This document shows, piece after piece, positions 13,585-58,494 of a stretch of DNA of 64,000 nucleotides (its first letter is position 1; each line of letters begins with the position of its first letter). The translations under genes and the position numbers were made by a program. The stretch spans positions 62,001-126,000 of the forward strand of contig NZ_WKJI01000003.1 of NCBI RefSeq assembly GCF_009674685.1. The letters are read 5' to 3'. This DNA is from Pedobacter puniceum. Its GTDB lineage: Bacteria; Bacteroidota; Bacteroidia; Sphingobacteriales; Sphingobacteriaceae. A model generated the notes under the pieces. It had not been told where the DNA came from. It made no database searches and saw only the letters and a list, made by a program, of their open reading frames with translations.

Positions 13585-13623
13585 TTTTGTTTAACTTTTA
13601 TAGATATTTCTTAAACAAATGTA
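13585..13623 (-). promoter_or_regulatory. promoter/operator of the pterin operon (shared motif)
   Basis: Read on the minus strand, a -7 box TACATTTG (13616-13623) runs straight into TTTGTTTA (13586-13619 holds the whole inverted pair). Then come ten bases and ATAAAAGTTAAACAAAA (13585-13601). The two arms TTTGTTTA and TAAACAAA are inverted with 18 bases between. The same layout lies before the ECF sigma gene at 58456-58494. No TTTG -33 box is seen. The site overlaps the likely transcription start, as a repressor site would. Confidence 0.6.
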
Positions 13624-13630
13624 CGATAGA

Positions 13631-13918
13631 TTATCGCTTAGAGATTTTATTTAATGTAATTTGACGTTGTAATGAACATTTAAAGCGGTTTACACCCTGC
13701 TCTCTTTTCTTTTGATGTTTGATAGAAACTTGATGGGCTCTTTCTCTCCAAAGCCTCCAGCTTGATGGTTTAAGTTCTCTTCTCATCAAACGGATAACAT
13801 CTTGCTCTTTTAATTTAAATTGATATTCTATGGCTTCAAAAGGAGTACGGTCTTCCCAAGCCATTTCTATAATTCTATCTATATCGGCTTGACTTAAATT
13901 TTTAAAATTTTGTTTCAT
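13631..13918 (-). CDS. TIGR03643 family small protein
   Basis: A 95-residue basic protein matching TIGR03643: [51 protein letters not shown] and a basic end. The pattern suggests a small helix-turn-helix-like fold, but the function is unknown. The family is often found beside cryptochromes and DUF2256, as here. It is divergent from the DUF2256 gene with only 41 nt between start codons, and it precedes the pterin operon on the same strand. Confidence 0.85.
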
Positions 13919-13959
13919 CAGTGATTAAACATCTTAAGCAGTCTATTGTTTATTTCCTC

Positions 13960-14112
13960 ATGAAGAACAAAAGCGGTAAAATTGTTAGCAAAGCCCATTT
14001 ACCTGCTAAGCTTTGTGTAGTTTGTAATAGGCCTTTCTCTTGGCGTAAAAAGTGGGAAAAATGTTGGGAAGAAGTAAAATATTGTTCAGAACGTTGCCGA
14101 AATATGAAATAA
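13960..14112 (+). CDS. DUF2256 zinc-ribbon small protein
   Basis: A 50-residue protein with a CxxC (C19, C22: CVVCNRPF), then C35 and the pair C42 and C46 (YCSERCR). This is the DUF2256 zinc-ribbon pattern with W28RKKWEKCW between. The ATG at 13960 fits the family length. An in-frame GTG at 13921 would add 13 residues and is rejected. It lies 37 nt before cryptochrome DASH on the same strand. DUF2256 genes commonly accompany cryptochromes; the function is unknown. Confidence 0.85.
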
Positions 14113-14149
14113 TAACCAAATTGCAGGCATTTTAAATATAAACCTTGAC

Positions 14150-15490
14150 ATGAGTGGTAAAACGATATTAGTATGGTTCAGGAACGATCTACGTATTCAT
14201 GATAATGAAATACTACTTGAAGCTACATTAAAAGGTACTAAAATTGTTCCTGTTTACATTTTTGATACTCGTTATTATACACAAACGGTTTATCAAACTC
14301 AAAAAACTGGGGTATTTAGAGCACAATTCACTATAGAAAGTGTTACTGATTTAAGACTCTCTTTACAAAAACTAGGCGGAGAATTATTGGTTTATACGGG
14401 TATTCCAGAGCAAATAATCCCAGAAATAGTTAAAAAATATCAAGTTGATGAGGTTTATCATCATAGAGAGGTAGCATCAGAAGAAACCAAAATTTCTTCT
14501 TTGGTTGAAGATGCGCTTTGGAAAAGCCAAATTAACTTAAAGCATTTTATTGGGCATACCTTATATCATAAAGAAGATTTACCTTTCCCTATAAAAGATA
14601 TTCCTGATGTATTCACCAAGTTTAGGAAAAAAGCAGAGAAGGAAGGCCAAATACGCTCGGTATTTGCTACGCCAGAAAAAATTATAGTTCCAAACAATTT
14701 AGAACAAACAGAAATCCCATCACTTCAAGATTTAGGTTTTGAAGAGTTTCAGCCAGACCAACGTAGGGCTATAAATTTTATAGGTGGTGAAACTGAAGGC
14801 TTAAAAAGATTGAACTATTATTTGTGGGAAACAGATTTTCTAAAGCAATATAAAATCACCAGAAATGGTTTAATTGGTGCCGATTATAGTTCTAAACTAT
14901 CTCCATGGCTTTCTGCAGGATGTGTATCACCAAGAGAAGTTTATTGGGAAGTAAAGAAATATGAGAAAGAGCGTGGAGCAAACGACTCTACTTATTGGTT
15001 GATTTTCGAATTGATTTGGAGAGATTACTTCCGTTTTATGTTCAAAAAACATGGAACCCAATACTTTATACAAGAAGGTGTAAAGGGTAAATCTCAGGAC
15101 TTAGCGTCTAATCAAGAAGAATTGTTTGAGAAATGGAAGGCTGGTAAAACTGGAGTACCTTTTGTGGATGCTAATATGAGAGAACTTAACCTAACAGGGT
15201 TCATGAGTAACAGAGGCCGTCAAAATGTTGCTTCTTATTTGGTTAAAGATTTAAAAGTAAACTGGACCTTAGGGGCAGCTTATTTTGAGGAAAAACTCAT
15301 TGATTACTCTCCTTCAAGCAATTGGGGTAATTGGGCTTACGTTGCTGGTGTAGGAAACGACCCCCGAGAAGACAGATATTTTAATATCCCTAAACAAGCC
15401 AAAGAATATGACCCTAAAGGGGAGTATGTTAAATTATGGCTTCCAGAACTATCTGAGCGTGGTGTAGAAACTGTACACGAAAATTACTAA
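14150..15490 (+). CDS. cryptochrome DASH
   Basis: A 446-residue FAD-binding blue-light protein. DASH members repair cyclobutane dimers in single-stranded DNA or act as photoreceptors, with methenyltetrahydrofolate as common antenna. Residues 1-130 are the antenna domain (ILVWFRNDLRIHDNE). The FAD domain contains YSSKLSPWLSAGC (246-258), ELIWRDYFRF (287-296), DANMRELNLTGFMSNRGRQN (340-359) and NWGNWAYVAGVGNDPRED, the DASH-specific end. It is co-directional with DUF2256 and the Fe-S photolyase. The antenna pterin could come from the neighbouring pterin genes, as inference. Confidence 0.95.
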   Translation: MSGKTILVWFRNDLRIHDNEILLEATLKGTKIVPVYIFDTRYYTQTVYQTQKTGVFRAQFTIESVTDLRLSLQKLGGELLVYTGIPEQIIPEIVKKYQVDEVYHHREVASEETKISSLVEDALWKSQINLKHFIGHTLYHKEDLPFPIKDIPDVFTKFRKKAEKEGQIRSVFATPEKIIVPNNLEQTEIPSLQDLGFEEFQPDQRRAINFIGGETEGLKRLNYYLWETDFLKQYKITRNGLIGADYSSKLSPWLSAGCVSPREVYWEVKKYEKERGANDSTYWLIFELIWRDYFRFMFKKHGTQYFIQEGVKGKSQDLASNQEELFEKWKAGKTGVPFVDANMRELNLTGFMSNRGRQNVASYLVKDLKVNWTLGAAYFEEKLIDYSPSSNWGNWAYVAGVGNDPREDRYFNIPKQAKEYDPKGEYVKLWLPELSERGVETVHENY

Positions 15491-15501
15491 AGAATTTAAC
15501 A

Positions 15502-15530
15502 AACTAATACAATTGTAAATTGTATTAGTT
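15502..15530 (+). repeat. 13-bp perfect inverted repeat between the two photolyase genes
   Basis: AACTAATACAATT (15502-15514), loop GTA, then the exact complement (15518-15530). The stem ends two bases before the ATG at 15533, so it would sit over the ribosome entry site of the second gene. No T-run follows, so a simple terminator is unlikely. A role in translation control or transcript stability, or a protein-binding site, is possible. Confidence 0.7.
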
Positions 15531-15532
15531 AC

Positions 15533-17068
15533 ATGTCTAAAACCTTAAGGTTAATTTTAGGAGATCAACTTAATACACAACATCCATGGTTTGCTGATAA
15601 GCAAAAAGATGTTACGTATGTGATGATGGAAATCATACCAGAGCAATTGTATGTGAAGCATCACATCCAAAAGATTATTGGTTTCTTTCTCAATATGAGG
15701 CATTTTGCCTTAAGCCTTAAACAGCAAGGGCATCATGTAATTTACTTTTACCTTGACAGCGCAGAAAACCAACAAGATTTTAAAGAAAACCTACTTTGGC
15801 TGAAGCAAAAACTTAGCATTAAAAAGTTCGAGTATCAGTTACCTGATGAAGTAAGACTTGATGAAGTTTTAAAAGAAATCCAAAAAGAATTTAAAGAAAG
15901 TAAAGTTTACGATACCTATCATTTCTTAACTTCAAGAAATGAGGTAAAAGACTTCTTTAGAGGTAAGAAACAGTATTTGATGGAGAATTTTTATCGCTAT
16001 ATGCGAAAAAAACATCAAATATTAGTAGATGATAAACAAAACCCAATTGGTGGTCAATGGAACTTTGATGCCGAGAATCGGAAAAAATATGATGGTAAAG
16101 CTCCTTTAAAAGATGCTCTTCTATTTAAAAGAGATGTAACCGAATTGGTTGCTTTGCTAGATAAATTGCAAATACCTTATTTCGGAGGAATCAATAAAAA
16201 GGAATATAATTACCCCGTTGGAAGGCAAGAAGCTTTTGCCTTACTAGACTACTTTTGCCAAGAGCTTTTGCCTGCTTTTGGTACTTACGAAGATGCTATG
16301 TTAAAAGAGCATGTAACACTTTTTCATTCCAGATTATCTTTTATACTGAATTTAAAAGTTATTAGCCCTTATGAGGTTGTACAGCAAGTTGTTAAATATT
16401 GGGAGTTACATCAAAATAGCATTACCATAGCTCAGGTAGAAGGTTTTACAAGGCAGGTTATAGGCTGGCGAGAGTATATGCGTGGAATCTATTGGGCAGA
16501 AATGCCCGACTTTAAAGAGAAAAATTTCTTTAATTACAGTACTTCTTTACCAACATGGTTTTGGGATGGAAAAGTAAAAATGAACTGCTTAAAGCATTGC
16601 ATATCAAACTCTTTAGAGCATGCTTACGCACACCATATACAACGCTTAATGGTTATTGGCAATTTTACATTGTTAGCAGGTATACATCCTAGTGAGGTAG
16701 ATAATTGGTTTTTAGGTGTTTACACGGATGCTGTAGAATGGGTGCAAATTACCAATACCAGAGGGATGAGCCAATTTGCAGATGGAGGAATTGTTGGAAG
16801 TAAGCCCTATGTATCATCAGCCAATTATATTGATAAAATGAGCAATTATTGCAAGGGCTGTTTTTACGATAAAGCTAAAAGACATGGGAACAAAGCTTGT
16901 CCGTTTAATAGTTTGTATTGGAACTTTTATATAGCGCATGAAGATAAGCTTAGAAGCAATCAGCGAGTTTCTATGATGTATAAGCTTTTAGAAAAAATTG
17001 AGCCTGATGAAAAAGAAAAAATTACAGAACAAGCAAAAAAATATTTGGAAAATCTAAACAGCTTGTAA
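15533..17068 (+). CDS. iron-sulfur bacterial cryptochrome/photolyase (FeS-BCP, (6-4) type)
   Basis: A 511-residue protein of the PhrB/CryB group, which repairs (6-4) photoproducts and binds FAD, a 4Fe-4S cluster and a lumazine antenna. It starts TLRLILGDQLN, the group's hallmark. The cluster cysteines are C352, C440, C443 and C456 (NCLKHC, YCKGC, KACPFNSLYW), with the same spacing as in Agrobacterium PhrB. RQVIGWREYMRGIYW, NFTLLAGIHPSEVDNWF and AVEWVQITNTRGMSQFADGG form the FAD site. It lies 42 nt after cryptochrome DASH. Confidence 0.95.
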   Translation: MSKTLRLILGDQLNTQHPWFADKQKDVTYVMMEIIPEQLYVKHHIQKIIGFFLNMRHFALSLKQQGHHVIYFYLDSAENQQDFKENLLWLKQKLSIKKFEYQLPDEVRLDEVLKEIQKEFKESKVYDTYHFLTSRNEVKDFFRGKKQYLMENFYRYMRKKHQILVDDKQNPIGGQWNFDAENRKKYDGKAPLKDALLFKRDVTELVALLDKLQIPYFGGINKKEYNYPVGRQEAFALLDYFCQELLPAFGTYEDAMLKEHVTLFHSRLSFILNLKVISPYEVVQQVVKYWELHQNSITIAQVEGFTRQVIGWREYMRGIYWAEMPDFKEKNFFNYSTSLPTWFWDGKVKMNCLKHCISNSLEHAYAHHIQRLMVIGNFTLLAGIHPSEVDNWFLGVYTDAVEWVQITNTRGMSQFADGGIVGSKPYVSSANYIDKMSNYCKGCFYDKAKRHGNKACPFNSLYWNFYIAHEDKLRSNQRVSMMYKLLEKIEPDEKEKITEQAKKYLENLNSL

Positions 17069-17089
17069 ATTTGTATTTGTTTAAACAAA
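17066..17089 (+). promoter_or_regulatory. possible promoter/operator of the MerR gene
   Basis: TAAATTTG (17066-17073) fits a -7 box. Two bases later comes the perfect palindrome TTTGTTTAAACAAA (17076-17089), which joins the same TTTGTTTA and TAAACAAA arms seen apart at 13.6 and 58.5 kb. It lies about 60 nt before the MerR start and could be a self-regulation site. The -7 box overlaps the stop codon of the photolyase gene. Confidence 0.45.
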
Positions 17090-17149
17090 TTTAACATAAG
17101 CTTGTTACTGCATTAACTCTAAAGCAGAAGTAGCTATAAAACAGGTAAG

Positions 17150-18049
17150 GTGAAAAGATTTTCTATTAGTGATATTGAGAACTTAACTGGTATAAAAGCC
17201 CATACAATAAGAGTATGGGAACAGCGTTATAATTTCTTTACTCCAAAACGTACCGAAACGAATATCCGTTATTACGATGATCAGGATTTGTGCATGTTCT
17301 TAAACATTGCCACATTAAATGAGAACGGGTATAAAATCAGTAAGATTTCTAAAATGAATAGTGAAGAAATTAATCAACTGGTTGCTTCTCTTAAAGAAAA
17401 TCATTACAACACCAACATTCAGGTTCAAATGCTTTCTAATGCCATGTTAAAAATGGATGATGATGAGTTTGATGAGATTTTAGGCGCCTGTATTAGAGAA
17501 ATGGGGATGGAAGCAGCAGTTTCCGAAATCGTTTTCCCTTTTTTAAGAAAAGTTGGTTTTATGTGGCAGGTAGGAACTATTAATCCTGCACATGAACATT
17601 TTGCTACCCACAAAATAGAGCAAAAAATTATCTATTGCACTACTCAGTTTAACAAAAAAATAAACAAGCAAGGTAAAAGGTATTTGCTTTTTTTGCCTCC
17701 AAATGAGCACCATCAAGTAGGGCTATTATTTGCACAATACATGTTAAGAAGTAATGGTCACCACGTTTTATATTTAGGACAAAACCTTCCTTATGATAGT
17801 CTAACAGAGGTTGTTAACTATTATGAGCCCGATTTTGTGCTGTCAGTATTAACCGTTCTAAATACCGATACGGATGTTGATGATGCTATCACTAAAATAA
17901 AAGCTGCTATAGGTGAAATACCTCTTATCCTCACAGGCAGTTTAATCACCAACCAAGAAACAAACAAATCTCAGAAAATCATTATCGTAAAAAATATTGC
18001 AGAGTTTGCAAGTATCATAGAAAAGTTAAATATGAGTATAGCTTCTTAA
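17150..18049 (+). CDS. B12-binding MerR-type regulator (LitR/CarH-like)
   Basis: The 299-residue protein has a MerR helix-turn-helix (residues 3-70: FSISDIENLTGIKAHTIRVWEQRY), a helical B12-capping domain and a cobalamin domain. The cap carries W139-x9-E149-H150 (MWQVGTINPAHEH), and the Rossmann part has E186-x-H188-xx-G191, the base-off B12 motif. CarH/LitR proteins use adenosylcobalamin to repress light genes in the dark. Residue 140 after the Trp is Gln, where CarH of Thermus has the histidine that binds cobalt after light. The start is GTG with a strong AGGTAAGG before it. Confidence 0.92.
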   Translation: MKRFSISDIENLTGIKAHTIRVWEQRYNFFTPKRTETNIRYYDDQDLCMFLNIATLNENGYKISKISKMNSEEINQLVASLKENHYNTNIQVQMLSNAMLKMDDDEFDEILGACIREMGMEAAVSEIVFPFLRKVGFMWQVGTINPAHEHFATHKIEQKIIYCTTQFNKKINKQGKRYLLFLPPNEHHQVGLLFAQYMLRSNGHHVLYLGQNLPYDSLTEVVNYYEPDFVLSVLTVLNTDTDVDDAITKIKAAIGEIPLILTGSLITNQETNKSQKIIIVKNIAEFASIIEKLNMSIAS

Positions 18050-18108
18050 TTTCAAATAATTATTTGAATATTTAAGCCTTTAAATTAGTGGTTTACAAAC
18101 CTATTTTT

Positions 18109-18116
18109 TACTTTTG
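18109..18116 (+). promoter_or_regulatory. probable sucA promoter (-7 box TACTTTTG)
   Basis: TACTTTTG matches TAnnTTTG and lies 24 nt before the sucA ATG. The -33 region is weak. Confidence 0.5.
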
Positions 18117-18140
18117 CCCCTTATAAAGAATTAGTTTTTA

Positions 18141-20945
18141 ATGGATAGTTTTTCATACCTAAGTAACGCAGATTCAGCCTACATAGATTCCCTTTATCAA
18201 TCATATAAAGAAGATCCTCAATCAGTAGATTTTGGCTGGCAAAAATTTTTCGAAGGATTTGATTTTGGTCAGCAGGCTGCAGACGGTAGCAGCACCGAAA
18301 ACGTATCTGTAAATTCAACTCCAGATCATGTATTAAAAGAAATTAATGTTTTAAACATGATTAATGGCTATCGTACAAGAGGCCATTTATTTACCAAAAC
18401 AAATCCAGTAAGAGAAAGAAGAAAATATTATCCTGGAAAGGGTATAGAAACTTTTGGTTTTACCGATGCTGATTTAGATACCGTATTTAATGCGGGTGTA
18501 GAAGTTGGTTTAGGTCCTGCAAAACTAAGAGACATTTATCAATTATTAGAAGATACTTATTGCCAATCTATAGGTGTAGAGTACAGATACATGCGTAATC
18601 CTATCAAATTTAAATGGTTTGAGGAGCGTATGGAGTCTTGTCGTAACTTACCTAACTTTGATACAGAGAAGAAAAAGAGAATTCTACAAAAACTTAATCA
18701 AGCTGTGGTTTTTGAGAGTTTCTTAGGGACTAAGTTTTTAGGTCAGAAACGTTTTTCTTTAGAAGGTGCAGAATCTTTAATACCAGCTTTAGACTCTGTT
18801 ATAGAAAAAGGTGCCGATTTAGGTATCCAAGAATTTGTTATTGGTATGGCTCACCGTGGTCGTTTAAATGTTTTAGCCAATATTATGGGTAAAACTTACA
18901 AAGACATTTTCTCTGAGTTTGATGGCAAATACAATAAAGATTTACCTTTTGGTGGTGATGTTAAATACCACATGGGTTTTTCTACCGATGTAGAAACCTC
19001 TAACAATAATAAAGTTCATTTAAGTCTTTGTCCTAACCCTTCTCACTTAGAAACCGTAGGTGCAATTGTAGAAGGTTTATCAAGATCTAAAATGGATATG
19101 AAATATGGTAGCGATTATAAAAAAATTGCTCCAATTTTGATTCATGGTGATGCCTCAATAGCCGGTCAAGGTTTGGTTTATGAGGTATTACAAATGGCAA
19201 AGTTAGATGCTTACAAAACAGGCGGTACTATCCACTTAGTTATCAACAATCAAGTAGGTTTTACTACTAACTTTAAAGATGCCCGTTCATCAACTTATTG
19301 TACAGATATTGCAAAAGTTACTTTATCTCCAGTATTCCATGTAAATGGAGATGATCCTGAAGCGGTAGTTTATGCTATCAATATGGCGATGGAATATCGT
19401 CAGCGTTTCCATAATGATGTATTCATAGATATCCTATGCTACAGAAGATATGGACATAACGAGTCTGATGAGCCAAGATTCACTCAGCCGCTTCTTTATA
19501 AAACGATAGAAAAGCATCCAAACCCAAGAGAAATTTATGTTGAAAAACTTAAAGCTGCTGGGGCTGTTGATGCCAATTTGGCTAAACAAATGGATAAAGA
19601 GTTCAGAGATCTTTTACAAGAAAGGTTAAATGAGTCAAAAGAAGATGAAGGTGCACCAATTAACCCTGTTTTTTCTGGCGCATGGACAGAAGTAAGGTTC
19701 TCTAAAGAAGAAGATTTTGTGTCATCTCCTGACACTAGCGTAGATAAAGATACTTTCTTGAAAATAGCTTCTAAAATTACCGATTTACCAACCGATAAGA
19801 AATTTTTATCTAAGGTAGACCGTTTATTTAAAGAGCGTAAGAAAATGGTTGAAGAAACCCATGTTTTTGATTGGGCAATGGGAGAGTTAATGGCTTACGG
19901 TACTTTAGTTAACGAAGGTAATAGGGTAAGAATTAGCGGTCAAGATGTTGAAAGAGGTACATTCTCTCACCGTCATGCCGTGGTTAAAGTAGAAGATTCT
20001 GAAGAAGAATATACTCCATTAACGCATGTTTCAGAAAAACAAGCTCCTTTTGAAATTTACAACTCACACCTATCAGAATATGGTGTATTAGGTTTTGAGT
20101 ATGGTTATGCTATGGCAAACCCTTACGCTTTAACCATTTGGGAAGCTCAGTTTGGAGATTTCTTTAACGGAGCTCAGATTGTTGTAGACCAGTACATATC
20201 ATCAGCAGAAACCAAATGGCAAAGAGCTAATGGTTTGGTAATGTTATTGCCACATGGTTATGAGGGGCAAGGTCCAGAGCACTCTTCTGCAAGGGTAGAG
20301 CGTTTCTTAGAGCTTTGTGCAGAGTATAACATGAGCGTTGTAAACTGTACAACACCAGCTCAATTTTTCCATGTATTACGTCGTCAATTAAAAAGAGAAA
20401 TTCGCAAGCCTTTGGTGGTATTTTCACCTAAGAGTTTGTTAAGATATCCAAAATGCGTTTCTCCTTTAGAAGATTTTACCAATAATAAATTCCAAGAAGT
20501 AATTGATGATGCATCAGCGAAAGCTAAAGATGTAAAACGTGTTTTAATTTGCACTGGTAAAATTTATTACGATTTACAAGAGGAGAAAGAAAAATTAAAT
20601 AGAAAGGATATTGCTATCGTAAGATTAGAGCAAATGTATCCTACTCCTTTTGCGCAGTTAGATAAAATCAGAGAGAAATATAGCAATGCTGAGTTTATCT
20701 GGGTACAAGAAGAGCCAGAAAATATGGGTGCTTGGCCATTCATCAGCAGAGTGTTTAGAAAATCTAAATTTGATTTTGATGTAATTTCTAGAAAACCTAG
20801 CAGTAGCCCTGCAACAGGTTTCGCTAAATTACATTTAGCAGAGCAAGCGGCTATTGTAGCCAAGGCTTTCGAGATAAAAAACACAGAGCAAGTTAAAGAA
20901 GTAGTAAAAAAAGCGTCGACCGCTAAAACTGCTAAAGTAGATTAA
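18141..20945 (+). CDS. sucA: 2-oxoglutarate dehydrogenase E1 component
   Basis: SucA is the thiamine-diphosphate decarboxylase of the oxoglutarate dehydrogenase complex in the TCA cycle. The 934-residue protein has the N-terminal E2-binding helix ([22 protein letters not shown]). The ThDP core includes [28 protein letters not shown] and [13 protein letters not shown], with [12 protein letters not shown] after it. The C-terminal half has [21 protein letters not shown]. Length is normal. It is followed 29 nt later by sucB, and the E3 subunit is probably encoded by lpdA at 55.3 kb. Confidence 0.97.
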
Positions 20946-20974
20946 TCATATATCAAATATATAATAGCGTATTT

Positions 20975-22507: not shown

Positions 22508-22526
22508 GCCTTTTCAATAAACTAAA

Positions 22527-22563
22527 GAAACCTCTGGAGAAAATTCCAGAGGTTTTCTTTTTT
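22527..22563 (+). terminator. terminator of sucAB
   Basis: Stem AAACCTCTGGA (22528-22538) with 22545-22555, 6-nt loop, followed by TCTTTTTT. It lies 20 nt after the sucB stop. Confidence 0.9.
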
Positions 22564-22576
22564 AGTGAGCAAATTT

Positions 22577-49242: not shown

Positions 49243-49245
49243 CAC

Positions 49246-49274: not shown

Positions 49275-49315
49275 GGTTATAATACTTAGGTAATAAGTGG
49301 TATTTATGGTGGATT

Positions 49316-49373: not shown

Positions 49374-49376
49374 CAC

Positions 49377-49405
49377 AAAAAGCCCGATGAAAATTGGGCT
49401 TTTTT
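49377..49405 (+). terminator. second terminator copy after the tRNA remnant
   Basis: Exact copy of the hairpin at 49246-49274, part of the 66-bp repeat. Confidence 0.8.
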
Positions 49406-49449
49406 GGTTTTAATATTTCTTACTTATATAAAGATTGAACGGATTTTTC

Positions 49450-51375
49450 TCAATCAACCGTTAAACTATTTCCAATCATATTTTTATTGTATTGCTGTAT
49501 AAAAGCTTTTAAATAAGTTTCTAATTCTTGTTTTTCCTTAGGCTGATTTTGGCTGATATCTTTTTTTAATAAAGCATCATTTTTATAGTTATAAAGTTTA
49601 CTGCTTTCTTCGTTATATTTTAAAACATACTGGCCTTTCATAATTTGGTAGTTACCATCGATGGTATTGATAACAAAATGATTTTTTTGAGGCTTCAGCA
49701 TATCATGCCCGAAAGCAAAGTAAGGCTTGTCAAAATTTAAGTAATTTAAAATAGTAGGAGTAATATCTATTTGTTGCACCGGATAATCTCGTTTACCTTT
49801 TAAATTGCCACTGGGGTCATAAATGATAATAGGAACAGCAAAGGCACCTAAAGATGTTTGATATTCTGGATGACTGGCAAGTGTAGAGTGGTCTGCTGTA
49901 ATGATAAACAATGTATTTTTGTACCATTTGCTTTTAGATACAGTTTTAAAAAACTTACTTAAAGCCATATCTGTATAGCCAACATTTTGATGAACCGGTA
50001 AAGTACCTTTAGGAAATTTGCCTTCATAAGCTACAGGTAATTTAAATGGATGATGCGATGAAAGCGTAAATACACTTGTGAAAAAAGGTTGTTTAAATGT
50101 ACTGATGTTTTTTGCCCAATATTGTAAAAAAGGCTCATCCCAAATGCCCCAAATACCATCAAAATCATCATCATTTTGGTATTCTGACTTCCCAAAATAA
50201 TGCTTTATACCAGCCATTTTTATGAAAGAACTAAAGCCCATAGAACCGTTAGGTGCTCCATGAAAAAAAGAGGTGTGGTAACCTTTATTGGCAAGTAAGC
50301 CACCTAAGCTATTAATTTTATTACCAGAATAGTAAGATAAAACAAAAGGCTCGTTTATACCAGGTATACTAGATAATACAGATGGTAAACCTTCAATAGA
50401 TTTTCTACCGTTTGCATAAGCATTGGTAAAACATAAAGAATGTTTAGCCAAAGAATCTAAAAATGGCGTATAACCTTTGTATTTTCCTTTTTCTAATTGG
50501 GGATTAAAAGAGCCTAAAAACTCTCTGCTAAAGCTTTCTAAAATAATAACAACAATATTTTTAGGCTTAAATTTTTGGCCTGAAATGGGTTTTTTGATAG
50601 GATTATACAAACTATCTACTACTGTTTTAGTAAAATAGTTTTGTTCTTTTAAAGGCTTCGTTTTTATAGTTCTGATGATAGAAAAAGGTGTATTAACAAC
50701 AATATTAATTTCTGATGGGTCTTGTACATATTCTCCCGCATTACTTATTGTAATAGGACGGGTACTATGTCTAAAGCCTCCACGCATACCTGCTATAGCA
50801 AACCAAATAATCAGCATCATCATTACTGCAGCGCTGCTACCATAAATGACAGTATTGTTAATTTTAGGCTTTTTTACAGGGATATGTTTATAAGCCCAAT
50901 ACATCCCAAAAAGGCAAAACACAAATAATAATGTGGTATGCCAGTAATCTATAAAAATAAATTTTAAGGCAAGTTCTGCTAAGTTTTGTTCATTAGAAAA
51001 CTGCGCAAACATGCTAAAGGTGCTACGTTTTAGTGTAAATGGGAAATAAGCAATATCAGCTATATTAAAAGCTAATCCTAAACCATTGGTAAAGAAGAAA
51101 ATGCCTGCAAATATCTTTTGGTATCTTTTACTGTATCGTATTTTTAAAGGGATAATCTGGCTGGCTATGAAAAGGATATTCAAGTAAATAATAGCACTAA
51201 TATCAAACTTTAAGCCGCCATAAAGTAAGGTTAAAAAGTGTAAAAAATTAAATTCTGGAAATGCAGAAGCATTAAAAATATAGAATGCTATTCTACAAAC
51301 AGAATACAGGGCTACAATAATAAATAGCCTTAAACCTAAAGAGAAATAAATATTTCCTCTTAAAAACTTGTACAT
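49450..51375 (-). CDS. LTA-synthase-like membrane sulfatase/phosphoglycerol transferase
   Basis: About 641 residues. Five membrane helices lie in residues 1-210. An alkaline-phosphatase-superfamily domain follows: NIVVIILESFSREFLGSFN (metal ligand Glu), GYTPFLDSLAKHSL, NGRKSIEGLPSVLSSIPG (nucleophile region, Ser rather than Thr), TSFFHGAPNG and IITADHSTLASHPEY (metal Asp/His). Bacteroidota lack lipoteichoic acid, so it probably transfers head groups to another envelope glycan or lipid. I chose the ATG at 51375; another at 51402 adds nine residues. Confidence 0.9.
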   Translation of the reverse strand: MYKFLRGNIYFSLGLRLFIIVALYSVCRIAFYIFNASAFPEFNFLHFLTLLYGGLKFDISAIIYLNILFIASQIIPLKIRYSKRYQKIFAGIFFFTNGLGLAFNIADIAYFPFTLKRSTFSMFAQFSNEQNLAELALKFIFIDYWHTTLLFVFCLFGMYWAYKHIPVKKPKINNTVIYGSSAAVMMMLIIWFAIAGMRGGFRHSTRPITISNAGEYVQDPSEINIVVNTPFSIIRTIKTKPLKEQNYFTKTVVDSLYNPIKKPISGQKFKPKNIVVIILESFSREFLGSFNPQLEKGKYKGYTPFLDSLAKHSLCFTNAYANGRKSIEGLPSVLSSIPGINEPFVLSYYSGNKINSLGGLLANKGYHTSFFHGAPNGSMGFSSFIKMAGIKHYFGKSEYQNDDDFDGIWGIWDEPFLQYWAKNISTFKQPFFTSVFTLSSHHPFKLPVAYEGKFPKGTLPVHQNVGYTDMALSKFFKTVSKSKWYKNTLFIITADHSTLASHPEYQTSLGAFAVPIIIYDPSGNLKGKRDYPVQQIDITPTILNYLNFDKPYFAFGHDMLKPQKNHFVINTIDGNYQIMKGQYVLKYNEESSKLYNYKNDALLKKDISQNQPKEKQELETYLKAFIQQYNKNMIGNSLTVD

Positions 51376-51466
51376 ACAAAAAGGTCCCCAAATAAGCCGC
51401 AAATATAGTATTAACCATATTTTAAGAAGCCTTTTTTAATTATTTAAATTGAGGTTATAAGATTTG

Positions 51467-53098
51467 TCATATTTTTTTGAGGTTTATATAAAAGTTAGGG
51501 TCTAAATTAAAACTACTTGCTTTTACATATTGCCAATTTGAACTTGGCTTAAGGTTTATTAGTTTCTGATTGATGTAAACTTGTAAAGGCATATTGAAAT
51601 TGGTGACATCACAATTCCAACGATAAATAAATCCTTTTTTATCTTTTTTAATTTCTAAAGTTGGTGGGTTTTTATGTTCGAGATATTGCTCAAATACTTT
51701 ACTTAAATCAATTTTTGTTTTTTGGTTGATGTATTTTATGATATCCTTGCCAGTTACGGTTTTTAAAGCAAAATCTTTATTTAAACCTATCAATAACTCA
51801 CGCCATAAGTTGTCATTATTAATAATACATCTTATAGTGTGCAGCATATTAGCACCTTTATAATACATATCTCCAGACCCCTCTTGATTAACACCATAAG
51901 GCCCTATAATAGGTTTGTCGTTTTGGATATTATTTCTTAGTCCAATAATATAATCAGCCCCAGCTTTTTTACCATAATGATATTCAATAAATAAGCTTTC
52001 AGAATAATTAGTGAAGCTTTCATGTACCCACATATCAGCAATATCTTTGGTAGTGATATTGTTGCCAAACCACTCATGTCCGGCTTCATGTACAATAATA
52101 AAATCCCATTTTAATCCCCAGCCTGTGCCTGATAAATCTCTACCTAAATATCCTTTTTTAAATTTATTGCCGTAAGCAATTGCACTTTGGTGTTCCATCC
52201 CTAAATAAGGAGTTTCGATAAGTTTAAAGCCATCTTTATAAAAAGGATAAGGTCCAAACCAATATTCAAAAGCTTGTAACATTCTTTTAACATCCGCATC
52301 AAAATGTGTTTTGGCAATTTCTAAATGTTCTGGTAAAACATAATAATCAAGACTCAGATTGCCTTTTAAACCTTTATAAACATCATTAAATAGAATATAA
52401 TTGGTAGCGTTTATCGCAACATTATAGTTGTTGATAGGAGAACTCACAAACCAATTATAAGTTTTGTAAGCATCCGGATGAGTGTCTACAGAACGTAACC
52501 TCCCGTTAGAAACATTCATCATATCTTTGGGTACACTTATGCTGATAAGCATACTATCTGCCTCATCTGCTTGTTGGTCTTTATTAGGCCACCAACTACT
52601 AGCGCCTAAACCTTGGCAAGAAGTAGTTATCCAATCTTGATCCTGATGTTTGGAAAATGTGAAACCACCATCCCAAGGAGCATTTTTAGCTATTTTAGGT
52701 TTCCCCTGATAAAAAACTTCAAATTTTTGTTGGCTATTTTTTCTGATACTATCAGGAAAGCTTACAAAAACTGCATGATGGGTTCTTATAAATGGTAGAG
52801 CTTTGTTTTCATAAATAATTTTGTCTATCTGTAAATTCTCAAATAAATCAAATTGTAGAGTTTTGAAATCTTTGGTAGCTGTGAACTGAAAAATATTACT
52901 GCCTTTAATTGTTTGATTTGCTACATCTATCTTCACTTTTAGGTTATAAAAGTTTACATCATAACAAGTTCTGTAAGGACTGTGGATATTACCTCTTAAC
53001 GAGTCGGCTAAGGTAGCTTTATGCGAATTTAAAAGCTGACTATAGGCGCTTGTTGATAAAAAGAGGAACACCAAAAAAGTAATATTTTTACGTGTCAT
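51467..53098 (-). CDS. M1-family aminopeptidase-like metallopeptidase
   Basis: A 543-residue exported zinc peptidase. Signal peptide: residues 1-20 (FLSTSAYSQ). The N-terminal beta domain ends near 250. The catalytic domain holds GMEHQ (300-304, exopeptidase loop; canonical GAMEN), HEAGH with H337, E338 and H341, and the third zinc ligand E360 (VHESF), 19 residues after H341. It likely trims peptides in the periplasm or on the surface. It lacks the long C-terminal helical domain of PepN. It is a single gene, with no clear operon partner. Confidence 0.93.
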   Translation of the reverse strand: MTRKNITFLVFLFLSTSAYSQLLNSHKATLADSLRGNIHSPYRTCYDVNFYNLKVKIDVANQTIKGSNIFQFTATKDFKTLQFDLFENLQIDKIIYENKALPFIRTHHAVFVSFPDSIRKNSQQKFEVFYQGKPKIAKNAPWDGGFTFSKHQDQDWITTSCQGLGASSWWPNKDQQADEADSMLISISVPKDMMNVSNGRLRSVDTHPDAYKTYNWFVSSPINNYNVAINATNYILFNDVYKGLKGNLSLDYYVLPEHLEIAKTHFDADVKRMLQAFEYWFGPYPFYKDGFKLIETPYLGMEHQSAIAYGNKFKKGYLGRDLSGTGWGLKWDFIIVHEAGHEWFGNNITTKDIADMWVHESFTNYSESLFIEYHYGKKAGADYIIGLRNNIQNDKPIIGPYGVNQEGSGDMYYKGANMLHTIRCIINNDNLWRELLIGLNKDFALKTVTGKDIIKYINQKTKIDLSKVFEQYLEHKNPPTLEIKKDKKGFIYRWNCDVTNFNMPLQVYINQKLINLKPSSNWQYVKASSFNLDPNFYINLKKI

Positions 53099-53191
53099 GT
53101 GAAATTTTAGGCAATTTTAATGGTTGATTTAAACATGCAAAAACGTATTTTTAAAAAATCTGTTATTCTAATAAGCATTTACAAATTTTAA

Positions 53192-54361
53192 ATGAAGATA
53201 CTTAAAGTAGAGGATAAAGCCACGCAAAAAGCATTTTTAGAGTTGCCGATATACTTATATAAAGATGATAAAAACTTTATCAGACCTTTAGATAAGGATA
53301 TTGAAATGGTTTTTGATGAGAAACGTAATAAGTATTTCAGACATGGTAGTTGTACCCGGTTTATTTTGCAAGATGATACTGGTAAAACCATTGGTAGAAT
53401 AGCTACTTTCATTAATAGAAAAACTTTAAACAGTTTTGACCAGCCCACCGGCGGCTTAGGTTTTTTTGAGTGTATTGATGATAAAAAAGCTGCTTTTTTA
53501 CTTTTTGATACCGCTAAAGCTTGGCTTGCAGCGCAAGGAATAGAAGCTATGGACGGACCTATAAATTTTGGAGATAGAGATAAATGGTGGGGTTTATTGG
53601 TTGATGGTTTTTATGAACCTTGTTATTGTTGTAATTATAACCCACCTTATTATCAGCAGCTTTTTGAGGATTATGGCTTTGAGGTTTACTTTAAACAATA
53701 CACTTATTACAGAAAAATATCGCAAAAGCTAGCTTCAAATTATGCTGATAAAGCAGAACACATTTTAAGTAACCCTGATTATACTTTTGAGCATATGAAG
53801 CTTTCTAATTTAGCTAAGTATATAGAGGATTTTAGGGTGGTTTATAACAGAGCTTGGGTAAAACATAAAGGTGTAAGAGAAATGAGTACGCAACAAGCCA
53901 AGGCTATCATGTTGCAACTAAAGCCAGTTTTAGATGAAAAAATTGTTTGGTATACCTATTATAAAGGAGAATGTATTGGCTTTTTTGTGAATATTCCAGA
54001 GCTTAACCAACTTTTTGTGAAGCATGTTAAGGGTAAGTTAGATTGGATAGGCAAAATCAAATTTCTATACCATAAATGGAGAAAAACTTCTAAAACAATG
54101 TACGGGATTGTTTTCGGAATTGTGCCTGAGCATCAGAAAAAGGGAGTTGAGGTAGCTATGATTGTAAGAGCTGCAGAAACTATTCAAGACAAGAATAAAG
54201 TTACTTATGAAGATTTTCAGATGAATTGGATAGGTGATTTTAACCCGAAAATGATGAACGTTGCCGAGCAAATTGGTGGTAAAATTTACAAAACTCATCA
54301 CACCTACAGGTATTTATTTGATAGAGATAAAGAGTTTAAGAGGCATCCGGTAATTGTGTAA
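53192..54361 (+). CDS. GNAT acetyltransferase-like protein of unknown substrate
   Basis: A 389-residue cytoplasmic protein common in Bacteroidota. Segments such as RFILQDDTGKTIGRIATFINRK and GGLGFFECIDDKKAAFLLFDTAKAWLAAQG look like an N-acetyltransferase fold. AMDGPINFGDRDKWWGLLVDGF follows, and a second part ends with GIVFGIVPEHQKKGVEVAMI, again GNAT-like (acetyl-CoA loop). The substrate is unknown. Its last 26 nt overlap the end of the convergent channel gene, which limits space for a terminator. Confidence 0.8.
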   Translation: MKILKVEDKATQKAFLELPIYLYKDDKNFIRPLDKDIEMVFDEKRNKYFRHGSCTRFILQDDTGKTIGRIATFINRKTLNSFDQPTGGLGFFECIDDKKAAFLLFDTAKAWLAAQGIEAMDGPINFGDRDKWWGLLVDGFYEPCYCCNYNPPYYQQLFEDYGFEVYFKQYTYYRKISQKLASNYADKAEHILSNPDYTFEHMKLSNLAKYIEDFRVVYNRAWVKHKGVREMSTQQAKAIMLQLKPVLDEKIVWYTYYKGECIGFFVNIPELNQLFVKHVKGKLDWIGKIKFLYHKWRKTSKTMYGIVFGIVPEHQKKGVEVAMIVRAAETIQDKNKVTYEDFQMNWIGDFNPKMMNVAEQIGGKIYKTHHTYRYLFDRDKEFKRHPVIV

Positions 54362-55130
54362 TTTCTTTGCCACACTGGGTGCAAAAATTAGCATTAACTG
54401 GGTTTTCTGTGCTGCAATTACCACAAACTTTACTTTTATTTTTTGATAACTCAACTGTAATTATACCCGTTGGAACGGCAATGATGGCATAACCCATAAT
54501 CATCGCTACCGATGAAAGAAATTTACCTAATACGGTTTGTGGTACTATATCTCCAAAACCTACTGTTGTAACTGTTACTATAGCCCAATAAATACTTTGT
54601 GGGATACTGGTAAAATTGTTTTCGCTACCTTCTATCACATACATTAGTGTACCTAAAATGGTAACCATCGTAAGAACTGTCATTAAAAAGACGCTAATTT
54701 TATAGGAACTCGCTTTTAAAGCATTAAAAAGCATTTGTGCTTCTCGGTTAAAGCGTACCAATTTTAAGATTCTAAAAACTCTAAGTAATCTAAATATTCT
54801 TACTGTGAGGAGGTAATGGTATCCAGCAAAAAATAAATCAAAATAGGTTGGGATAATAGAAAGCAAATCTACTAAGCCCCAAAAACTAAATATATAACGA
54901 AATGGCTTTGGAGATGTCCATATCCTCAAAATGTATTCTATAGAAAATAAAATGGTTAAAATCCACTCTATGGTATAAAATTCCTTGAAAAAAGCCTCAT
55001 GTACTTCGGGAATACTTTCTATAATAACAATCACTACACTAAACAGAATCACCCAAAGTAAAGCTATATCAAATGCCCTTCCGGCTTTAGTATCGTGTTC
55101 AAAAATGATGTTATACAGACGTTTTTTCAT
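54336..55130 (-). CDS. voltage-gated-type potassium channel with zinc ribbon
   Basis: A 264-residue six-helix ion channel. S1-S4 includes VRIFRLLRVFRILKLVRFNRE, a voltage-sensor with repeated Arg. The pore has TVTTVGFGDIVP, the K+ selectivity filter. S6 follows. A C-terminal zinc ribbon (CGNCSTENPVNANFCTQCGK, CxxC pairs) ends the chain. I chose the ATG at 55130; the ATG at 55166 would add 12 hydrophobic residues. Its 3' end overlaps the neighbouring gene. Confidence 0.9.
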   Translation of the reverse strand: MKKRLYNIIFEHDTKAGRAFDIALLWVILFSVVIVIIESIPEVHEAFFKEFYTIEWILTILFSIEYILRIWTSPKPFRYIFSFWGLVDLLSIIPTYFDLFFAGYHYLLTVRIFRLLRVFRILKLVRFNREAQMLFNALKASSYKISVFLMTVLTMVTILGTLMYVIEGSENNFTSIPQSIYWAIVTVTTVGFGDIVPQTVLGKFLSSVAMIMGYAIIAVPTGIITVELSKNKSKVCGNCSTENPVNANFCTQCGKEITQLPDAS

Positions 55131-55254
55131 AATTAATAATATAAATTCTAATATAACAATAAACAAGCCTTAATGGTTAATCAAAATAATTGAAAAGAAG
55201 CTTGCCAGAAGGCAAATAGAATCGTTAATTTAGCCAAAACAAAAAATTAGAAAG

Positions 55255-56658
55255 ATGCAATACGACGTTATCGTAATAGGTTCTGGTCCGGGCGGTTATG
55301 TAGCCGCTATCCGTTGTGCCCAATTGGGAATGAAGACCGCTATTGTAGAGAAATATTCAACCTTTGGAGGTACTTGCTTAAACGTAGGTTGTATCCCATC
55401 AAAGGCTTTACTAGACTCATCAGAACATTACCATAATGCAACCCATACCTTTGCAGAACATGGTATTGATGTTAAAGATGTAAAAGTAAATATCAAGCAA
55501 ATGATTAAAAGGAAAAATGAGGTAGTAGCACAAACTACTGCTGGTATTACTTTCCTGATGAAGAAAAATAAGATAGATACTTATGAAGGTCTAGGCTCAT
55601 TTAAAGATAAAAACACCATTAAAATTGCTTTAGCAAAAGGTGGAGAACAAGAAATTACAGGTAAGAATGTTATTATAGCAACAGGGTCTAAACCAACAGA
55701 ACTACCTTTCTTAAAAACTGATGGTAAGCGTATTATTACATCTACCGAAGCTTTAAACTTAACAGAAGTTCCGAAACATTTAATCTTAATAGGAGGTGGT
55801 GTTATTGGTTTAGAGTTAGGTTCGGTTTACGCCCGTTTAGGTGCTGAAGTTACTGTGGTAGAGTTTGCTTCATCTATTATTCCAACTATGGATAGTACCA
55901 TGGGTAAAGAGCTACAAAAATCTTTAGCCAAATTAGGGGTTAAGTTTTTACTTAGTCATAAAGTTACAGGTGCCGAGGTAAAAGGTAAAAAAGTAACCGT
56001 TACCGCTGATTCTCCAAAAGGTGAAAAAGTAGTTCTAGAGGGTGATTATTGCTTGGTTGCAGTTGGAAGAACTGCCTATACCGAAGGATTAGGTTTAGAT
56101 AAAATTGGAATTACTGTAGAAGAAAGAGGCAAGAAAATCCCGGTAAACGAACATCTTGAAACTTCTGTTAAAGGTATCTATGCTATTGGCGACGTTATTA
56201 AAGGTGCAATGTTGGCTCATAAAGCAGAAGAAGAAGGTACTTTTGTTGCCGAAGTTATTGCCGGACAAAAACCACACATCAATTATAATTTAATACCGGG
56301 TGTAGTTTACACTTGGCCAGAGGTTGCTTCTGTTGGCTATACAGAAGAGCAGTTGAAAGAACAAGGTAAAAAATATAAAGTAGGTTCTTTCCCTTTCAAA
56401 GCAAGTGGAAGAGCAAGAGCTAGTATGGATACCGATGGTTTAGTAAAGGTATTAGCAGACGCTACTACTGATGAGATTTTAGGTGTACATATGATTGGGC
56501 CACGTACAGCCGATATGATTGCTGAAGCTGTAGTAGCGATGGAGTTTAGAGCAAGTGCAGAAGATATTGGTAGAATAAGCCATGCTCATCCAACTTTTAC
56601 AGAATCTTTCAAAGAAGCTGCTTTAGCTGCTACTGATAATAGAGCGATACATATTTAG
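55255..56658 (+). CDS. lpdA: dihydrolipoyl dehydrogenase
   Basis: The 467-residue flavoprotein is the E3 that reoxidises lipoyl arms of pyruvate and oxoglutarate dehydrogenases with NAD+. It has VIVIGSGPGGYVAAIR (FAD), the redox disulfide C41/C46 (GGTCLNVGCIPSK), ILIGGGVIGLELGSV (NAD), YAIGDVIKGAMLAHKA and the C-terminal HAHPTFTESF (catalytic His/Glu). It may serve the sucAB complex at 18-22.5 kb. A terminator follows 24 nt after the stop. Confidence 0.97.
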   Translation: MQYDVIVIGSGPGGYVAAIRCAQLGMKTAIVEKYSTFGGTCLNVGCIPSKALLDSSEHYHNATHTFAEHGIDVKDVKVNIKQMIKRKNEVVAQTTAGITFLMKKNKIDTYEGLGSFKDKNTIKIALAKGGEQEITGKNVIIATGSKPTELPFLKTDGKRIITSTEALNLTEVPKHLILIGGGVIGLELGSVYARLGAEVTVVEFASSIIPTMDSTMGKELQKSLAKLGVKFLLSHKVTGAEVKGKKVTVTADSPKGEKVVLEGDYCLVAVGRTAYTEGLGLDKIGITVEERGKKIPVNEHLETSVKGIYAIGDVIKGAMLAHKAEEEGTFVAEVIAGQKPHINYNLIPGVVYTWPEVASVGYTEEQLKEQGKKYKVGSFPFKASGRARASMDTDGLVKVLADATTDEILGVHMIGPRTADMIAEAVVAMEFRASAEDIGRISHAHPTFTESFKEAALAATDNRAIHI

Positions 56659-56682
56659 AATGTAAATAACATAAAAGTCTAG

Positions 56683-56711
56683 GCCGCAACTTTAAATGTT
56701 GCGGCTTTTTT
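56683..56711 (+). terminator. terminator of lpdA
   Basis: GC-rich stem GCCGCAAC (56683-56690) with 56698-56705, loop TTTAAAT, then TTTTTT. Confidence 0.93.
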
Positions 56712-56807
56712 GTTTTGGAGAATAATAGTATCCTACAAGTATATCAATAGTTCACAATCGTTTTTAAGAGCTAAATTTTAAATGCATCTTTGCTATATAT
56801 TTAATTT

Positions 56808-57248
56808 ATGATTTGGTATTACGCATCTGGTATAATTATACTTACCATCATAATGATGGAGTTAGTTTCGTGGACTTTGCATAAATACTTATTTCATGGC
56901 CCGCTTTGGTTTATTCATAAAACACACCACCAACAAAGACATGGTTTTTTTGAGTTAAATGATATTTTTAGTTTAGGTTTTGGGATATTAGCCTGCTGGC
57001 TGATGTTTGATAACCAAACAACATTAAACCATAAATTTTGGGTGGGTGTAGGTATATCAATATATGGTATCATCTATTTTATTTTTCACGATTGGTTTAT
57101 TCATAATCGCTTTAAAGCATTTAAAACCGAAAATAAATATTTAAAAGGCATCAGAAGAGCGCATAAAATACATCATAAATCAACAGAAAAGATGCCTTCA
57201 GAAGAGTTTGGTTTACTTTGGGCATCCAGAAAATATTTTAAAAGCTAG
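56808..57248 (+). CDS. crtZ: beta-carotene hydroxylase, sterol-desaturase superfamily
   Basis: CrtZ adds 3-hydroxyl groups to beta-ionone rings, giving zeaxanthin. The 146-residue di-iron membrane protein has the His boxes HKYLFHG, HKTHHQ, HDWFIHN and HKIHH, and three to four helices. The length is that of bacterial CrtZ. It lies 24 nt before murB, though it belongs functionally to the crt genes at 59-63 kb. Electron supply could come from the mini cytochrome b5 at 62.8 kb (inference). Confidence 0.93.
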   Translation: MIWYYASGIIILTIIMMELVSWTLHKYLFHGPLWFIHKTHHQQRHGFFELNDIFSLGFGILACWLMFDNQTTLNHKFWVGVGISIYGIIYFIFHDWFIHNRFKAFKTENKYLKGIRRAHKIHHKSTEKMPSEEFGLLWASRKYFKS

Positions 57249-57272
57249 TCATCATTTCAATATAACGTCATC

Positions 57273-58289
57273 ATGTTACAAATCCATCAAAATGTTTCTT
57301 TAAAGAATTTCAATACCTTTCAAATTGAGGTTTTTGCTAAATATTTTGTTGAAATATGTCGAGAAGATGAGCTTGTAGAACTATTTCTAGACCCACAATG
57401 GCACCAAACCCCACGTTTGGTTTTGGGTGGTGGTAGCAATATGTTACTTACACAAGATTTTGATGGTTTAGTTATTAAAATGAATATTAGGGGAATAGAG
57501 CATCGCATCAATCATCAAGAAGTTGTGGTAGAGGCTGGTGCTGGTGAGGTTTGGAATGATTTTGTAAATTATTGTGTTGATTGGGGTTTTGCAGGAGTAG
57601 AAAATTTAAGCCTTATACCGGGTTCTGTAGGTGCTTCGCCAATACAAAATATTGGTGCTTACGGAGTAGAGCTAAAAGATGTATTTGAAAGCTGTAAAGC
57701 CTTTGAAATTGCTACTGGTACTTTTAAGTACTTTACAAATGATGCTTGCAAATTTGCATATCGCGAAAGCATATTTAAAAGGGCCTTAAAAGGTCAATAT
57801 ATTATTTGTAGTGTAAAGTTTAAATTGTCTTTAATTCCTCAAATAAATATCAGTTATGGGGCTATCCAAGCCGAATTAACAAATAGAAATATTACACAAC
57901 CTACTTTAAGTGATGTATCTAAGGTGGTGTCAGAAATTAGGGTATCTAAATTGCCAGACCCATTTACCATTGGTAATGCAGGGTCTTTCTTTAAAAATCC
58001 TATTATAACAAAAGAACAATTTGACCTATTACATGAACAGTTTCCGGAGATAGTGTACTTTTTATTGCCCAATAATGAAGTTAAATTAGCTGCTGGTTGG
58101 TTAATAGAGCAATGTGGCTGGAAAGGAAAGGTTGTTGGCCATACAGGTACTTGGCATCAGCAGGCCTTGGTTATTGTTAATCATGGTGGTGCAACCGGAA
58201 AAGAAATTTATGATTTTTCTACATCTATTATAAATTCTGTTCAACAGAAGTTTGGCGTTGTCTTAGAACGCGAAGTAAACGTCTTTTAG
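57273..58289 (+). CDS. murB: UDP-N-acetylenolpyruvoylglucosamine reductase
   Basis: MurB reduces the enolpyruvyl group to make UDP-MurNAc for peptidoglycan. The 338-residue flavoprotein begins QIHQNVSLKNFNTFQIEV, with the FAD loop RLVLGGGSNMLLTQDFDG, LSLIPGSVGASPIQNIGAYG, FAYRESIFK and GNAGSFFKNPII (substrate site with Ser), and ends AAGWLIEQCGWKG. Type I MurB length is normal. It sits between crtZ and the ECF sigma gene, with no functional link known. Confidence 0.96.
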   Translation: MLQIHQNVSLKNFNTFQIEVFAKYFVEICREDELVELFLDPQWHQTPRLVLGGGSNMLLTQDFDGLVIKMNIRGIEHRINHQEVVVEAGAGEVWNDFVNYCVDWGFAGVENLSLIPGSVGASPIQNIGAYGVELKDVFESCKAFEIATGTFKYFTNDACKFAYRESIFKRALKGQYIICSVKFKLSLIPQINISYGAIQAELTNRNITQPTLSDVSKVVSEIRVSKLPDPFTIGNAGSFFKNPIITKEQFDLLHEQFPEIVYFLLPNNEVKLAAGWLIEQCGWKGKVVGHTGTWHQQALVIVNHGGATGKEIYDFSTSIINSVQQKFGVVLEREVNVF

Positions 58290-58394
58290 CTAAGGTATGT
58301 AATTTTTTTACTACCCATTATTAGATTAAAATCCTGAAAACCTTATTTATACGCCTTTGGTCTAACTTTTGTTAGCGAAAAAGTGTTGCAACAT

Positions 58395-58494
58395 ATTGTT
58401 TAATTTTTTTGACAAAAAACTTAAACAAAATTTGCAGATTACAAATTATAATCATTAAGTTTGTTTAGGTATTAATCATAAAAGTTAAACAAAA
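58395..58494 (+). promoter_or_regulatory. ECF sigma promoter with two copies of the shared inverted motif
   Basis: Site 1: ATTGTTTA at 58395-58402 and TAAACAAA at 58422-58429 (19 bases between). A -33-like TTTG (58431-58434) and -7 TAAGTTTG (58456-58463) are 21 nt apart. Site 2: TTTGTTTA at 58460-58467 and TAAACAAA at 58486-58493 (18 between), with ATAAAAGTTAAACAAAA at 58478-58494 reaching the ATG. Site 2 covers the likely start of transcription and matches the pterin-operon site at 13.6 kb. Confidence 0.6.

Follow-up and report, generated by a model that had tools for sequence, protein, structure and literature searches.

A promoter-doubled inverted operator linking pterin, sigma factor and proteorhodopsin genes of Pedobacter puniceum to a probable CarH/LitR-type B12-MerR regulator

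Results and discussion

In a 64,000-nucleotide stretch of the Pedobacter puniceum genome (contig NZ_WKJI01000003.1, positions 62,001 to 126,000; hereafter the window), one palindromic sequence stands in front of the pterin operon, which begins with the gene for 6-pyruvoyl tetrahydropterin synthase (PTPS), and twice in front of a gene for an extracytoplasmic function (ECF) sigma factor beside the carotenoid (crt) genes. This shared sequence is probably the operator of a B12-dependent MerR repressor of the CarH/LitR type that is encoded in the window at 17150-18049. A candidate for the sensor, a 34-bp site and three target loci can thus be named, the third locus being a proteorhodopsin operon elsewhere in the genome. 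We consider it an evenly balanced question whether, more broadly, proteorhodopsin phototrophy in Bacteroidota is turned on and off directly by a B12 photoreceptor whose regulon also covers photoprotection, acting on inverted boxes that are spaced about 2.5 turns and are doubled as a clamp around the sigma promoter. If this holds, genes for sunscreen and for solar energy would both depend on a vitamin that many bacteria have to take up from outside.

Operator sequence and occurrence

The two copies described in the first-pass annotation are exact and lie where it had placed them, reading TACATTTGTTTA-AGAAATATCT-ATAAAAGTTAAACAAAA at 13585-13623 (-) and TAAGTTTGTTTA-GGTATTAATC-ATAAAAGTTAAACAAAA at 58456-58494 (+). 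The chance expectation for the full layout in the window is 0.00 (100 shuffles), and the genome scan that the annotation had proposed, for the 39-base layout with up to three mismatches, returns only these two copies in 3.9 Mb (10 contigs), with 0 for the reversed-pattern control over the same genome. The 17-mer alone is exact at the two sites only, with two further places at one mismatch. The annotation had cautioned that such a 17-mer can recur in AT-rich DNA, and with up to three mismatches it is indeed no rarer in the window than chance (6 found against 3.6 expected).

Comparison with congeners resolves the operator into a 34-35 bp palindrome of ideal form TTTGTTTAACTT-N10/11-AAGTTAAACAAA, with eight-base arms separated by 18 or 19 bases and perfect 32-base palindromes in some genomes (e.g., G121 and G118). 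The TAAACA positions are the best conserved part of each arm. A sequence-only model (R1), built from 30 sites of the genus at sigma-gene and PTPS promoters, separates three sites in the window from noise, with 29-33 bits on the better strand against 8.9 bits for the next place, and simply counting matched arm letters picks out the same three, each with 14 or more of 16. The 14/16 threshold and the 17-20 range of spacers were chosen after the first 50 promoters had been viewed, the model search scored the best 150 first-look candidates per genome, and the sites independent of R1 training are those at rhodopsin genes, at class II MerR genes (see below) and at folE of G043 only. By model scan and alignments, the full operator is not seen in the DUF2805/DUF2256 or crtI/crtB intergenic regions of the window. 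The DUF2805/DUF2256 region has elements of its own at 13919-13959, AAACATCT and a TATTGTTTA-like sequence, which are distinct from the operator and kept in 6/6 congeners inspected.

Promoter architecture at the target loci

Bacteroidota promoters follow a consensus of TTG at -33 and TAnnTTTG at -7. A TAnnTTTG box lies near the ECF start codon in 22 of the 27 genomes with the MerR gene, and in 22/22 such promoters a TTG stands 19-21 bases ahead of it. The start-proximal operator, D, is found in 17 of these 27 genomes and the upstream operator, U, in 16 of those 17, with centres 63.0-65.5 bp apart, so that in the window the two operators sandwich the putative promoter of the sigma gene. What had first been described as a looser third copy (58395-58429) is real, with 15/16 arm letters and a spacer of 19; it is U, and rather than a loose extra it forms half of a fixed two-operator design. 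The -7 box reported as joined to the operator is so joined at D, which overlaps the box in 16/17 genomes (predicted promoters with unmapped starts), and at the pterin site of the window, and is no part of U. The sigma and crt genes are adjacent, and six crtI/crtB intergenic regions, when aligned, show no obvious common promoter block.

The pterin promoter carries a single operator, which reaches at least 14/16 in 15 of 18 congeners. An operator also stands ahead of folE in G043, a member of another genus. The two-locus scope of the first-pass annotation proved too small. The model search of the organism's own genome adds one site, C1:744141-744178 (E 3.5e-4, next match 0.065), directly upstream of the rhodopsin gene in a proteorhodopsin-crtY-blh operon, where lycopene cyclase and beta-carotene dioxygenase genes follow; the cluster is rhodopsin plus retinal supply. 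A rhodopsin is present in 7 of the 18 congeners, with an operator of 15 or 16 of 16 just upstream in all seven. Outside the genus the operator is upstream of 0/12 rhodopsins (12 of 14 matches, searched over 160 bases upstream and then over the whole locus), and four of these loci have one 14/16 match each, inside a coding region. As a separate observation, the Rfam DUF805 RNA (RF03081) takes the place of the operator in rhodopsin leaders of other genera (L286 396-463, L296 248-314 and L298 1346-1414); among the six rhodopsin loci searched, three are at or above the gathering score and L300 (1364-1431) is below it.

A coincidental match between an AT-rich promoter with its leader, or an RNA hairpin, and a palindrome that is no operator at all is scarcely credible. 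The window DNA has a G+C content of 34%, the -7 box lies within the left arm of D, and the right arm of D extends to the ATG, all of which would favour such a match, but U has the same arms and spacing upstream of the promoter in 16 genomes that also have D. The pterin and rhodopsin sites end ahead of the start codon, and as the left arm overlaps the -7 box, little of it would be transcribed. Moreover, shuffled promoters (Markov) reach 14/16 or more in 46/3180 and 16/16 in 0/3180 cases, and the operator is found at 0/12 second PTPS copies and 1/30 TetR genes used as control promoters. The sites at class II MerR promoters likewise speak against coincidence.

Co-occurrence of the operator with B12-MerR genes

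The MerR gene adjoins sucA (2-oxoglutarate dehydrogenase) in 27 of 30 family loci, and this position defines class I (these loci and G010, with G065, at a contig end, and G118 included by protein identity). Of 121 genomes, 106 entered the ECF census; the remaining 15 had no ECF match, a distant match only or a gene cut by a contig end. Some ECF best matches with less than about 75% identity are possibly paralogues. An operator of at least 14/16 occurs at the ECF promoter in 27/27 genomes with class I MerR and in 5/79 others, and at 16/16 the split is 14/27 to 0/79. Fisher's test gives p 1.7e-20, a value inflated by kinship of the genomes, which are not independent. All eight census genera with class I MerR have the ECF operator, and members without the gene have it in 0/1 (g1), 0/1 (g11), 0/10 (g14) and 1/4 (g21) cases. 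Among the congeners, G103 is without the MerR gene and has no model match better than E 0.065, and the other 17 each have one at E 7.3e-7 or better. With a limit of E 0.02, the model search in other genera reaches the ECF promoter in only 9/14 class I genomes, and eight genomes with neither MerR class give one match (G101, E 0.01).

The TetR-type protein of the pterin operon was considered as a binder of the palindrome that would control its own operon and the sigma gene. It is encoded in that operon, occurs in 12 of 13 congeners compared and is absent from G103, which is also without the operator. Nevertheless, the operator is present in 6/6 genomes with MerR and without TetR and in 2/33 with TetR and without class I MerR; therefore TetR is not what the operator follows, TetR upstream regions carry it in the 1/30 cases given above, and this candidate was rejected as very improbable. 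Slightly less improbable is another regulator, co-inherited with the MerR gene, that reads the site. Co-occurrence alone cannot name the binder, and the candidates compared are MerR and TetR, but such a regulator would need to accompany both MerR classes, which occupy different genome locations, sit at class II MerR promoters and share the CarH half-site.

The second class of B12-MerR genes, found in other genera and including that of G066, has crtB within the fetched stretch in 19/19 loci and sucA in 0/19. The class II MerR gene carries the operator at its own promoter in 16/19 cases, three of them found by the model search (G095, G066 and G061; 16/16) and 13 among 16 tested without selection, with 44/3200 for shuffles. 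The three misses score 13, 12 and 13, and in two of them, G120 and G021, both arms are changed symmetrically. Directly ahead of crtI, G110 and G105 carry one more copy, with 16/16. Class II thus looks like the classical layout, with the regulator beside carotenoid genes and an operator at its own promoter. Class I has moved next to sucA and is without a full operator of its own, its operators standing at distant targets that include the ECF sigma gene. Taken together with the fit to the CarH half-site described below, the two classes give good support to that part of the first-pass proposal in which one B12-MerR protein is the shared regulator, and the CarH/LitR-type protein of the window is very probably the protein that recognizes the operator, as judged from sequence comparison.

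The B12-MerR protein

Pfam assigns to the window protein MerR_1 (6.6e-16), B12-binding_2 (2.7e-9) and B12-binding (1.7e-5, below the curated cut-off). The CarH entry 5c8d matches it at E 8.6e-19, just behind the identically aligning chain 3whp. Structure prediction without an alignment had low confidence (pLDDT 43), and an alignment-based model (pLDDT 84.5) was used instead, for which the best 12 Foldseek matches are all full-length Thermus CarH (best E 4.0e-15, TM 0.47-0.57); the cobalamin domain alone reaches a TMt of about 0.8. The Wx9EH motif and the cobalamin ligand ExH are present in the window protein and in 25/25 relatives read, five of the 30 loci giving no readable frame, with the following G being S or A in three. 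By analogy with CarH, this MerR-family protein may bind adenosylcobalamin, respond to light and form tetramers or dimers on DNA. It is 94% identical to the MerR protein of Pedobacter glucosidilyticus DSM 23534. In alignment A2 the two motifs are kept in 20/21 MerR proteins and lost in L313. The L313 protein (5001-5897), a sucA-linked MerR of a metagenome-assembled genome of Sphingobacteriales, has R, Q and N in place of W, H and H, resembling the B12-independent CarA; its 10.9 kb locus has no operator of 14/16 or more, and its ECF gene lies outside that stretch. Upstream of the window MerR gene, at 17075-17090, there is a perfect palindrome ATTTGTTTAAACAAAT made of two boxes with zero spacer, which is the same in G091 and G018 and altered in G108 and is possibly a weak autoregulation site.

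Relation to known light-dependent regulators

According to the available sections of PMC9304148, the CarH box reads nnnnTnnACAn and is repeated directly and in tandem every 11 bp, and those of PMC8156234 give it as nAnnTnnACAn. The operator arm AAGTTAAACAA fits both forms, and the T, A, C and A of TnnACA are among the best conserved arm positions (1.8-2.0 bits). The protein and its site resemble CarH of Thermus, Bacillus megaterium and myxobacteria, as far as these two sources describe it, in the MerR-B12 protein with Wx9EH and ExH, in the TnnACA half-site, in the overlap of the operator with promoter elements and in carotenoid genes among the targets. The single box is CarH-like, but not the arrangement, in which two boxes stand face to face. 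Unlike the tandem repeats of CarH, the boxes form an inverted pair whose arms are 18-19 bp apart, and at the sigma promoter such a pair lies on either side, a geometry that differs from the CarH operators described in the parts of both papers referred to above. The proposed targets include pterin genes, proteorhodopsin and an ECF sigma gene, all at a distance from the gene of the regulator. If the assignment is right, CarH-type proteins accept an inverted, long-spaced operator. An extra TGTTTA lies 13 bp outside the left arm and is complete in 12/23 scorable cases.

For the sigma-factor step, the closest parallel would be the litS step of LitR in Streptomyces coelicolor. There too, according to the accessible text of PMC12705666, a B12-MerR protein governs an ECF sigma gene, and the LitS sigma factor drives crt. 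The LitR-LitS-type feature found here, an ECF sigma gene with a predicted B12-MerR operator in 27/27 genomes, is one of presence, not function. LitR activates in light according to that text; here the regulator lies tens of kilobases from the sigma gene, and the step from sigma to crt is here only a presumed one. The class II LitR proteins PplR1 and PmlR2 of Pseudomonas, in the portions of PMC9758184 at hand, share a MerR-type light regulon with photolyase, cryptochrome and folE, two-box operators, and two sites flanking one promoter. Their sites, T(G/A)TACA-N12-TGTA(C/T)A, differ in the spacing of 12, and these proteins work with a LOV (light, oxygen, voltage) photoreceptor and have no rhodopsin among the genes named in those portions. 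CarA of Myxococcus xanthus is a CarH relative with an operator initially reported as a pair of inverted repeats near -35 (accessible sections of PMC9304148), but CarA is B12-independent and released by CarS, whereas the window protein keeps the cobalamin residues. In a Chryseobacterium, carotenoids are induced by light without car or lit genes, according to the available part of PMC7064467. A literature search, with subscription papers mostly outside its reach and absence hence unproven, gave no link of B12-MerR proteins to rhodopsin, nor to an ECF sigma gene in Bacteroidota.

Proposed mode of regulation

The position of the operator together with the behaviour of the CarH family suggests dark repression and release in light. 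In the dark, the MerR protein, carrying adenosylcobalamin, would occupy a pair of inverted TnnACA boxes. In this genome the single operators of the pterin and rhodopsin promoters overlap the -7 box, where the bound protein would block transcription. At the ECF sigma gene, U abuts the -33 element and D spans the -7 box to the start codon, and the promoter may be clamped by a pair of bound complexes with a distance of about six helical turns. On illumination the cobalt-carbon bond would be broken and the protein would leave the DNA, so that three gene sets would come on at the same time. One of them would serve pterin synthesis, plausibly to supply a cofactor of photolyase or cryptochrome. The second would be the ECF sigma factor, through which the carotenoid genes next to it would be driven, and the third proteorhodopsin along with the genes that supply retinal. 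Such a B12 light switch would explain a joint onset of light protection and light harvesting, and pterin supply, carotenoids and rhodopsin would be tied to one vitamin.

An alternative with the same regulator and operator is that the MerR protein is not simply a dark repressor but activates in light, or acts in both ways. It finds a precedent in Streptomyces, where light-activated LitR promotes litS transcription (available text of PMC12705666), and U, upstream of -33, is in a position open to activators. It is nevertheless unlikely, though clearly ahead of the other alternatives, as three sites in this genome, D and those at the pterin and rhodopsin promoters, overlap the -7 box and so lie where binding should obstruct transcription, and as CarH and class II LitR are described as repressors in the accessible portions of PMC8156234, PMC9304148 and PMC9758184.

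Several findings weigh against repression by the B12-MerR protein as the common explanation. The promoter of the window MerR gene has single boxes and is without the full operator, and 0/29 class I MerR promoters reach 14/16. A CarH-like 11-bp direct repeat is not seen beside the arms, with every offset within 30 bp scored (inward 0/37 on either side, outward 0/23 and 1/23). The weaker ECF sites of G100, G050, G120 and G097 (in an odd place) fall outside the usual promoter arrangement. Conversely, G077, G062, G074, G076 and G085 have an ECF site of 14-15/16 without class I MerR; only G077 has an evident cause, loss of MerR from its slot. Among the 18 congeners, G113, G097 and G103 lack the pterin operator although G113 and G097 have the MerR gene, and the rhodopsins of the MerR-bearing G043, G070 and G010, of other genera, are without an operator. 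Furthermore, we infer rather than observe binding, cobalamin use, the light response, the direction of repression and the sigma-to-crt step. In G077, 317 bp without a MerR gene lie between photolyase and sucA (L183 6593-6910) and one 15/16 sigma-gene site is kept, which looks like the relic of a natural MerR loss.

Features of the window and further sites

The coordinates of the operators, promoter elements and genes are collected in Table 1.

Table 1. Operators, putative promoter elements and genes in the window, with the basis of each assignment
Feature	Position	Strand	Basis or remark
TetR-type regulator gene, probably same operon as PTPS	10433..11125	-	Pfam TetR_C_23
Short-chain dehydrogenase/reductase (SDR) and flavin reductase genes, probably same operon (adjacency)	11139..12480	-	Pfam
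GTP cyclohydrolase I (folE)	12482..13195	-	Pfam
PTPS, first gene behind the pterin operator	13146..13559	-	Pfam
Operator at the pterin (PTPS-folE) promoter	13586..13619	-	Arms TTTGTTTA and TAAACAAA, spacer 18, 33.4 bits, 16/16
Putative -7 box TACATTTG	13616..13623	-	Overlaps left arm of pterin operator
DNA photolyase, linked, without a full operator of its own	14150..15490	+	Pfam; model scan
Photolyase-related protein (DPRP)	15533..17068	+	Pfam
B12-MerR protein, CarH/LitR type, proposed binder	17150..18049	+	Pfam, CarH matches, predicted fold
Upstream operator U of ECF sigma gene	58395..58429	+	Spacer 19, 29.2 bits, 15/16
Putative -33 TTG	58432..58434	+	2 bases past U, 21 bases ahead of -7 box
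Putative -7 box TAAGTTTG	58456..58463	+	Overlaps left arm of D
Start-proximal operator D of ECF sigma gene	58460..58493	+	Spacer 18, ends at start codon, 32.4 bits, 16/16
ECF sigma factor, proposed target	58494..59024	+	Pfam
Phytoene desaturase-like gene, presumed downstream sigma target (adjacency only)	59050..60552	-	Pfam amine oxidoreductase; crtI name from context
Phytoene synthase (crtB), presumed downstream sigma target	60671..61507	+	Pfam SQS_PSY
Lycopene cyclase, presumed downstream sigma target	62071..62757	+	Pfam

Two model sites in tandem also occur upstream of the gene for the small chain of class I ribonucleotide reductase in a genome with a B12-MerR gene (L345 1501-1536 and G007:C1:4283591-4283623), possibly reflecting a B12 link of reductase choice.

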